Positions 7,406 through 9,396 of a stretch of DNA of 38,442 nt are shown piece after piece. The notes below the pieces were generated by a model. The model was not told the origin of the DNA, did not search any database, and worked only from the letters and a program-made list of their open reading frames with translations. The position numbers were made by a program, and so were the translations under genes. Source of the stretch: Alkalinema sp. RU_4_3 (GTDB lineage Bacteria > Cyanobacteriota > Cyanobacteriia > Leptolyngbyales > Leptolyngbyaceae); contig JAAUSA010000019.1 of NCBI GenBank assembly GCA_012031975.1, positions 1-38,442 on the forward strand. Reading direction: 5' to 3'. Positions within the stretch are counted from its first letter, which is position 1. The number at the start of each line of letters is the position of its first letter.

Positions 7406-7828
7406 CTAATCATCCACAGCGACCATCACATCACTGGATTTGATCAGGGCGTAGGCTTGTCGTCCCTCTTTCAGTTGCAGTACTTCGGCTGAAGAACGGG
7501 TAATGACAGATACGGCTTCGACACCCGGAGCAATCTCAAGCAAAATCTCAGCATTAACACTGCCTAACCGCACCTGTTTAATGATTGCGGCAAAAACATT
7601 ACGGGCGCTCACGCGCATTGCATGGATTTCCAAATCCCGGTGAGGTGACTGTTTCTTAACGGCAGTTGACTGCGCGTTGAGGTCAGGCATTTCTTGATCT
7701 AACGTCCTCACCAACTGACGCAACACATCGGTTTTTGATCGCTGCGTCTGCTGACAATAGCGCTCAAGCGTCTGCCGCTCAGTCTCAGGCAATTGAAAAG
7801 TGACCCAACCTTGATCTTTACGAGGCAT
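7406..7828 (-). CDS. Ribbon-helix-helix/TOBE fusion, probable molybdate-responsive regulator
   Basis: A 140-aa protein with two domains. Residues 8-45 (WVTFQLPETERQTLERYC, then SKTDVLRQLVRTL) match a CopG-type ribbon-helix-helix DNA-binding fold. Residues 73-140 are a single Mop/TOBE molybdate-binding domain (SARNVFAAIIKQVRLGSVNAEI, ITRSSAEVLQLKEG, ALIKSSDVMVAV). ModE normally pairs a winged helix with two TOBE domains; here a smaller DNA-binding module is used. The gene is divergent from modA, and a palindrome lies between them 8-24 bases upstream of its own start, so autoregulation and control of modAB by molybdate are inferred. Both domains look intact. Confidence 0.75.
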   Translation of the reverse strand: MPRKDQGWVTFQLPETERQTLERYCQQTQRSKTDVLRQLVRTLDQEMPDLNAQSTAVKKQSPHRDLEIHAMRVSARNVFAAIIKQVRLGSVNAEILLEIAPGVEAVSVITRSSAEVLQLKEGRQAYALIKSSDVMVAVDD

Positions 7829-7835
7829 GATAAGC

Positions 7836-7888
7836 TACCAACTTAGTTGGTAATATCTTGACATAAGGTTGGTACTTGTTCAAATAAT
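7836..7888. promoter_or_regulatory. Operator-promoter between the RHH-TOBE gene and modA
   Basis: A perfect inverted repeat, TACCAAC-TTA-GTTGGTA, spans 7836-7852. A third identical half-site, GTTGGTA, lies at 7868-7874, exactly 22 bp (about two helical turns) after the second arm and in the same orientation. On the + strand a consensus -35 TTGACA (7858-7863) and a -10-like AATAAT (7883-7888) flank this third half-site with a 19-bp spacer. A dimeric regulator bound here could block both modA and its own gene. The sequence elements are seen; binding by the adjacent RHH-TOBE protein is inferred. Confidence 0.6.
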
Positions 7889-7913: not shown

Positions 7914-8738
7914 ATGCGTGCGAAGTTCTGGCGAGTTGGACTACTAGGATTTTTGGTGACGCTACTCCTGATTGCTTGCGCCCAACTTGCGCCGCAACCT
8001 CAGTCGATTCAGCCAAAGGCAACTCAATCCGCTGCTCAAACTTCGACGCTTTTGGTGGCTGCTGCCGCAAGTCTCCAGAAAGCACTCCAAGAAGTTATAC
8101 CCCTTTACGCCCAAGCAAATCCAAACCAGACCATTTACTATAACTTTGCTGCTTCTGGTGCATTGCAACAGCAGATCGAGCAGGGCGCACCTGCTGACGT
8201 GTTTATCTCAGCGGCTGCCAAACAGATGAAAGCTTTGCAGGAAAAGGGGTTGCTGGAATCGGGAACTCAAAAGAGCTTACTGACCAATCAATTAGTTCTG
8301 ATTATCCCGAAGCAAACTTCTGTGGCCTTGACTGACTTTAAGCAACTTGTTCGGCCAGACGTTAAGCGCATCTCAGTTGGAGAACCCCGCAGTGTTCCAG
8401 CAGGACAGTATGCTACAGAAGTCTTGAAGAACCTGGGAATTTTAGAGCAGGTACAATCTAAATTTGTGCTGGGGAACAACGTTAAATCTGTTCTAACGGC
8501 GGTAGAAACAGGCGATGTCGATGCCGGGATAGTTTATATTACCGATGCTAAGGGCTCAGACAAAGTGACGATCGCCGCAACGGATGATGAAAAGCTTCAT
8601 GCACCGATCGTCTATCCCATCGCAGTTTTGAAGGCGAGTAAATCACTGGGTAAGGCTAAGGAATATGTTGAATTCTTGCAAAGTGACAGTGCAAAGGCTG
8701 TATTTAAAAAATATGGATTTGGAATTGCCAATTCTTGA
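7914..8738 (+). CDS. modA: Molybdate ABC transporter, periplasmic binding lipoprotein
   Basis: An intact 274-aa molybdate/tungstate-binding protein. A lipoprotein signal (FLVTLLLIAC, lipobox Cys22) anchors it to the membrane. The mature part carries ModA signatures: LLVAAAASLQKALQEV, YNFAASGALQQQIEQGAPADVF, TNQLVLIIP, SVGEPRSVPAGQYATEVL and AGIVYITDA. It delivers the oxyanion to the ModB permease encoded four bases downstream. The start is preceded by a run of nine A (7900-7908) and lacks a well-placed Shine-Dalgarno sequence; GAGG at 7891 is too far upstream. Expression is probably controlled from the operator-promoter at 7836-7888. Confidence 0.93.
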   Translation: MRAKFWRVGLLGFLVTLLLIACAQLAPQPQSIQPKATQSAAQTSTLLVAAAASLQKALQEVIPLYAQANPNQTIYYNFAASGALQQQIEQGAPADVFISAAAKQMKALQEKGLLESGTQKSLLTNQLVLIIPKQTSVALTDFKQLVRPDVKRISVGEPRSVPAGQYATEVLKNLGILEQVQSKFVLGNNVKSVLTAVETGDVDAGIVYITDAKGSDKVTIAATDDEKLHAPIVYPIAVLKASKSLGKAKEYVEFLQSDSAKAVFKKYGFGIANS

Positions 8739-8742
8739 TTAA

Positions 8743-9396
8743 ATGCTCATCCCCGATTTGTCTCCTCTATGGATTTCTCTGAAAGTGTCCCTGTTCGCAA
8801 CGATGATCACCTTGGGACTCGGAACCTTTTCTGCTTATAGAATGTACCGATATCAAGGAAAGGTGCGATCGCTGATTGAGGGTATTCTAATTGCACCTTT
8901 GATCTTGCCGCCAACGGTGATCGGTTTTGTGCTGCTCATCTTGCTGGGTAAAAATGGTGTTTTGGGACAGATTCTGACCCAGTGGAATTTGAGGGTTGTG
9001 TTTACATGGTATGCCGCTGTTTTAGCGGCAATTGTTGTATCATTTCCACTGATGTATCGATCGGCTTTAGGGGCTTTTGAGCAAATTGAGGTGTTGATTT
9101 TGGACGCAGCAAAAATTGACGGGGCCTCAGAAATCGCTGTGTTTTGGTATATCGCTTTACCCTTAGCATCTCCTGGCATTATGGCGGGTACAGTGCTGAC
9201 CTTTGCTCGTGCGTTAGGGGAGTTTGGTGCAACATTGATGATTGCAGGAAATATCCCAGGACAAACTCAAACAATGCCAATGGCGATTTACTTCGCAGTT
9301 GAGGCTGGCGCAATTCAGGAGGGATGGTTCTGGGTGATTATGGTAATTCTTATTTCTTTAGCAGGAATTGTTACAGTTAACTCTTGGAAAGTCTAG
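8743..9396 (+). CDS. modB: Molybdate ABC transporter permease
   Basis: A 217-aa inner-membrane permease with about five hydrophobic segments and the conserved cytoplasmic EAA loop (DAAKIDGASEIAVFWYIALP, then LASPGIMAG), which docks the ATPase. GEFGATLMIAGNIPGQTQTM is characteristic of ModB. The length is normal for stand-alone ModB. Many cyanobacteria carry a ModB-ModC fusion; here the frame stops after VNSWKV and no ATP-binding cassette follows in any frame, so the ATPase must be encoded elsewhere or has been lost. It follows modA by four bases, in the same transcript. Confidence 0.9.
   Translation: MLIPDLSPLWISLKVSLFATMITLGLGTFSAYRMYRYQGKVRSLIEGILIAPLILPPTVIGFVLLILLGKNGVLGQILTQWNLRVVFTWYAAVLAAIVVSFPLMYRSALGAFEQIEVLILDAAKIDGASEIAVFWYIALPLASPGIMAGTVLTFARALGEFGATLMIAGNIPGQTQTMPMAIYFAVEAGAIQEGWFWVIMVILISLAGIVTVNSWKV

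Follow-up and report, generated by a model that had tools for sequence, protein, structure and literature searches.

The locus analysed here lies in a window of 38,442 nucleotides, which is the whole stretch of DNA that was studied. It comprises a gene for a small protein joining a ribbon-helix-helix (RHH) domain to a TOBE/Mop domain, and this gene is divergent from modA and modB (Table 1). The intergenic gap measures 85 bp and contains all three half-sites of a candidate operator: TACCAAC (7836-7842), GTTGGTA (7846-7852) and a further GTTGGTA (7868-7874). The divergent arrangement with modA, the perfect TACCAAC/GTTGGTA palindrome and the third half-site exactly 22 bp beyond the second were all recovered as given in the initial annotation.

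Table 1. Coordinates of the features at the regulator-modA locus, as positions in the window.
Feature	Position	Strand	Evidence
RHH-TOBE regulator gene, 140 aa	7406..7828	-	ORF, TOBE/Mop matches, full-length cyanobacterial orthologues
TOBE/Mop oxyanion-binding domain, residues 74-136	7421..7609	-	Pfam/NCBIfam, genome search, ModE alignment, invariance
Ribbon-helix-helix (RHH) DNA-binding domain, residues 1-48	7685..7828	-	RHH_1 matches in orthologues, predicted helices, fold matches
Palindromic operator TACCAACTTAGTTGGTA, 7 bp upstream of regulator ATG	7836..7852		genome uniqueness, conservation
Probable modA -35, TTGACA	7858..7863	+	sequence; kept in window and L034-L038
Third half-site GTTGGTA, 22 bp from second	7868..7874	+	sequence; relatives
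Possible modA -10, AATAAT, 19-nt spacer; weak, not conserved	7883..7888	+	sequence, promoter scan, relatives
modA, molybdate-binding protein, probable target	7914..8738	+	TIGR01256, E 6.8e-65, above cut-off
modB, molybdate permease, 4 nt after modA, probable target	8743..9396	+	TIGR02141, E 9.4e-71, above cut-off

Profile searches detected one TOBE stretch in the regulator (residues 74-136, E 3e-13; PF03459, 50.2 bits against a cut-off of 22.3), which was also matched by the Mop family TIGR00638 (E 4e-18, 65.2 bits against a cut-off of 55). The N-terminal 48 residues follow the order beta-strand, helix, helix. The Pfam family RHH_1 was matched by 21 of 27 orthologous N-terminal domains at E <= 1 (best E 2.9e-4), and the window protein itself scored below threshold (E 0.031, 14.7 vs 20.5 bits). 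Since a profile of the N-terminal domain gave only chance matches to designed proteins when searched against PDB sequences, a fold comparison was needed. The monomer prediction of residues 1-48 (pLDDT 82) places helices at 15-28 and 32-46, and the top PDB fold matches of this model were nearly all RHH proteins (PutA, Arc, CopG, NikR, AmrZ and ParG), with modest individual scores (Z 5-6, E 0.3-3). The fold search with the whole protein matched the TOBE part. Over 112 distinct sequences the RHH domain is the most conserved portion of the regulator, with approximately 20 invariant positions, among them Q6, W8, T10 and Q12 on the presumed recognition strand. By its strand, two predicted helices and the profile match obtained via orthologues, the N-terminus is assigned to the RHH (CopG/MetJ/Arc) type, and the fusion of an RHH to a single TOBE that had been read from the sequence was thus upheld.

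Residues S74, R76, T110, S113 and K130 of the regulator were invariant in the first 17 orthologues and align with S126, R128, T163, S166 and K183 of Escherichia coli ModE, which we take to be the oxyanion-ligand positions. Three of them, S74, R76 and K130, have counterparts in the tungstate TOBE protein Tub (Ser4, Arg6 and Lys60), which there belong to the type-2 site (PMC11980592). As judged from these alignments, the oxyanion-ligand residues are conserved in the regulator and binding of molybdate or tungstate is predicted.

The core palindrome TACCAA-N5-TTGGTA (TACCAANNNNNTTGGTA) occurs a single time in the 5.25-Mb genome, at the window operator, and the reversed control pattern occurs twice. 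Hexamers start at 7836 (TACCAA), 7847 (TTGGTA), 7858 (TTGACA, the -35 element) and 7869 (TTGGTA), that is, in exact 11-bp steps. A sigma-70 scan of the modA promoter with spacers of 16-18 nt found no promoter, and the candidate -10 AATAAT is not conserved in the window's clade. The third half-site had been placed inside the -35/-10 spacer of modA; the conserved -35-like TTGACA agrees with this placement, whereas the -10 does not strengthen it, and the position within the spacer is therefore only likely, as it depends on the -35 while the -10 is weak.

Full-length RHH-TOBE orthologues were identified in the window's order, in named cyanobacterial genomes and in a sample of the cyanobacterial phylum. 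In a strict search (E 1e-25), 46 of 386 cyanobacterial genomes gave matches, part of which were TOBE-only; within one Nostoc-type genus, RHH-TOBE orthologues were present in 13/13 genomes. No relatives of the regulator were found in the viral contigs searched, and the plasmid matches were mostly TOBE-only, with no clear RHH-TOBE among the matches listed. modA was divergently adjacent at 59 of 134 RHH-TOBE loci. In Leptolyngbya FACHB-36 (L096:4503-5671) the RHH-TOBE gene and a gene for a ModC-like ATPase point towards each other.

Operator conservation was assessed on 28 non-redundant upstream regions of modA-linked orthologues, with shuffled sequences as control. TACCAA-N5-TTGGTA with at most two mismatches was present in 26/28 regions, compared to 1.1% in shuffles (best match with 0 mismatches in 17 regions, 1 in seven, 2 in two, and 3 in the remaining two, L052 and L062), and throughout the set 4-7 nt separate the end of the palindrome from the start codon of the regulator. 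The loss of half-sites in relatives, which the initial annotation had named as a refutation, was thus not observed in these linked regions as a whole. A second element, TTGGTA-N6-TACCAA, was found 18-22 bp beyond the palindrome in most regions (23 of the 28 with at most two mismatches, against 0.5% expected). Most linked orthologues outside the window's clade accordingly have a four-site layout (TTGGTA-N6-TACCAA ... TACCAA-N5-TTGGTA). The operator of three half-sites described earlier is the form of the window's small clade, and a fourth half-site is present in most of the remaining linked orthologues; the form lacking a clear outer half of the N6 pair is seen in the window, Phormidesmis priestleyi ULC007, Acaryochloris, Chamaesiphon and one unclassified Synechococcales MAG.

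In the five nearest relatives the third half-site keeps its position, with a distance of 21 bp in one of them, and across the linked orthologues its spacing ranges over 18-22 bp. The offsets of the 11-bp grid, including TTGACA, are the same in L034, L036, L037 and L038, and nearly so in L035. Exact half-site distances in the linked set cluster near 11-12, 18-22, 29-34 and 41-45 bp, which is roughly what proteins reading the DNA from a single helix face would require.

Among the Nostoc/Dolichospermum copies that do not adjoin modA the palindrome is lost in many, with 4 mismatches in 12 of 27. Second RHH-TOBE copies away from modA were observed in Nostoc beside a CBS-like gene (L047:5001-5435 and L058:5001-5435); here the palindrome is weakened and the TTGGTA-N6-TACCAA pair is often still recognisable.

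modBC often lies apart from modA in Nostoc-type genomes, and a 22-bp-spaced inverted repeat, TACCAA-N16-TTGGTA, is located approximately 100-300 bp before modBC in 6/6 of those compared (G427, G083, G065, G230, G431 and G378). Two TACCAA-N5-TTGGTA palindromes lie between a second SBP_bac_11 gene and an SLH-OprB porin gene in G431 and G065, and G426 has the same two upstream of the homologous SBP_bac_11 gene; in G230 and G428 this site holds only an imperfect palindrome. G431 also carries a palindrome with an upstream half-site before a further SBP_bac_11 gene. Paired palindromes between divergent SBP_bac_11 and SLH-OprB genes are found at L191:6677-6981 and L192:7692-7993. Over 16 genomes the palindrome was counted 46-48 times, vs approximately 8 for the reversed control pattern. 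Some matches are intragenic, for example G431:C1:3821756 in an ORF of 510 aa; these are likely due to chance and were not counted as targets. Judging by the related sites before modBC and the accessory uptake genes, in some genomes the regulator probably controls other loci as well. This refines the initial annotation, which had read regulator, ligand domain and operator from a single locus. Because the comparison covered genomes with the regulator, it is linkage, together with these sites in trans, that connects the motif to the regulator.

Published work on Anabaena variabilis describes a Mo-transport gene under repression by molybdate and tungstate, and a 'modE homolog' located just upstream of modA (PMC4284476); the domain make-up and operator of this homolog are not given in that review. 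Genome G431 carries modBC at 1.607 Mb and, 2.68 Mb away at 4.288 Mb, an RHH-TOBE gene divergent from modA, as well as several nitrogenase sets including a V-nitrogenase (VnfD reading frame of 607 aa); it matches A. variabilis, although it may be a sister strain. Since this matching genome has an RHH-TOBE gene beside modA, the published 'modE homolog' is probably an RHH-TOBE protein.

Taken together, the RHH-TOBE protein is in our judgement very probably a one-component repressor, responsive to molybdate and tungstate, of molybdate uptake and of its own gene. The TOBE/Mop domain would bind the oxyanion between subunits, and RHH dimers would insert their beta-ribbons into TTGGTA/TACCAA half-sites approximately one helical turn apart, several dimers carried on one TOBE core facing the same side of the DNA. 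With plentiful molybdate, acting as co-repressor, the protein would sit over the -35 of modA and over the beginning of its own gene, so that uptake is switched off and its own synthesis limited; with scarce molybdate it would release both. Further targets in Nostoc-type genomes would be modBC and the accessory binding protein and porin.

The direction of control could be the reverse, with a regulator that is mainly an activator, or an apo-protein that binds DNA and is released by molybdate, giving induction instead of co-repression. E. coli ModE is annotated as a dual regulator and sets a precedent for activation by an oxyanion-bound regulator, but the sites overlap both the -35 of modA and the region where translation of the regulator starts, as is typical of repression, and in A. 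variabilis the effect of Mo and W on the transport gene is repression and not induction (PMC4284476). We consider this direction unlikely. Slightly less probable again is that the palindrome serves another regulator, and that the RHH-TOBE protein, encoded beside modA by chance, mainly stores molybdate. Stand-alone Mop proteins with a similar TOBE are common in related genomes, and such proteins have been described as storage proteins of cyanobacteria (PMC3627308). Against a storage role, the strongest conservation falls on the RHH and not on the TOBE, the sites track both the regulator gene and the uptake genes elsewhere in the genome, and the ModE domain (TIGR00637) was found above cut-off in 0/17 genomes having the regulator. 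The palindrome was also considered as an RNA element controlling translation of the regulator, as the transcript UACCAAC-UAA-GUUGGUA could fold into a stem of 7 bp whose end lies 7 nt ahead of the AUG. In 168 stem pairs there were 0 compensatory double changes and 16 pairs were broken, and half-sites recur in everted order, or as 22-bp-spaced repeats at modBC; a hairpin was rejected as highly improbable, and because the stem is without compensatory changes the palindrome is read as a DNA site.

Returning to the molybdate-responsive repressor, Tub is a hexamer built as a trimer of dimers (PMC11980592). As single TOBE domains of the Tub/Mop kind assemble in this way, a regulator hexamer, if the assembly is kept, would hold three RHH dimers, matching the three half-sites. 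In a more far-reaching version, which is possible although we hold it to be doubtful, one hexamer would read three half-sites at once on one DNA face. These would start at 0, 11 and 33 bp of the grid, and the hexamer at 22 bp, which is the -35 of modA, would be a degenerate site; RHH-TOBE would have replaced ModE in the cyanobacteria having it, and the whole uptake route including the outer-membrane porin would be controlled.

The protein was compared to known systems. With E. coli ModE it shares a TOBE/Mop whose ligand positions carry identical residues, a gene adjoining and divergent from the modA operon, and, presumably, repression of modA with molybdate or tungstate. ModE has a winged helix and two Mop domains, whereas the regulator has an RHH, one TOBE and an operator of TTGGTA half-sites, and a profile search of the window protein gave no match to the ModE winged-helix domain (TIGR00637). 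The nickel repressor NikR likewise joins an RHH to a C-terminal ion-sensing oligomerisation domain. NikR half-sites are two helix turns apart (PMC5385501), which the 22-bp-spaced repeats at modBC resemble by analogy and not by membership. The sensor of NikR binds a metal, while that of the RHH-TOBE protein is a TOBE for an oxyanion, with half-sites also packed at 11 bp; the NikR C-terminal nickel-binding domain was not matched in the window protein, whose C-terminal half is the TOBE. Lacking the ModE winged helix and second TOBE as well as the NikR metal domain, RHH-TOBE is ModE-like in role and NikR-like in design, and a member of neither.

The molbindins Mop, MopII and Tub (hexamers with eight oxyanions) have a single TOBE that aligns free of gaps and with the same ligand positions; they are stores, whereas the RHH-TOBE protein adds a DNA-binding domain and linker, in keeping with a regulator. 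The A. variabilis gene, in the same place next to modA in the genome matching the species, probably belongs to the same family. TaoR-like and HTH-TOBE proteins are one-component regulators for Mo/W as well; they sense through TOBE and/or PBP-like domains and bind DNA through an HTH, and RHH-TOBE is absent from the major architectures in that survey, which covers gut genomes only (PMC11980592). Within the collection of papers searched, none combined ribbon-helix-helix, TOBE and molybdate. RHH-TOBE is a variant combining known kinds, not a new class.

Many cyanobacteria thus appear to sense molybdate via a small RHH-TOBE protein on a conserved, helically phased operator at uptake genes. This provides a candidate Mo-uptake regulator for cyanobacteria including heterocystous nitrogen fixers, for which the literature found names only a 'modE homolog', and joins a Mop sensor to an RHH reader in parallel to NikR for nickel. 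The phased operator and a hexameric core suggest an unusual DNA-reading stoichiometry, and the sites at the porin and second binding protein suggest a Mo-regulated outer-membrane step in molybdate uptake.

Some further observations were made on gene content and isolated palindromes. The window yielded no ModC-like sequence, and the L034-L038 loci gave only one weak ABC match (29%, L037). modB is stand-alone in the window and in L034-L038, and a fused modBC is present in most other cyanobacteria compared. Palindromes near HSDR_N-domain proteins of approximately 300-340 aa were seen at L195:2755-2771 and L193:8376-8392, one of them approximately 2.7 kb from modA. In G420 a palindrome (L193:11985-12001) lies upstream of a regulator with HTH and PBP_like domains that resembles VnfR, followed by a NifH/VnfH-like gene; going by its position, cross-talk between the Mo switch and V-nitrogenase control is possible there.
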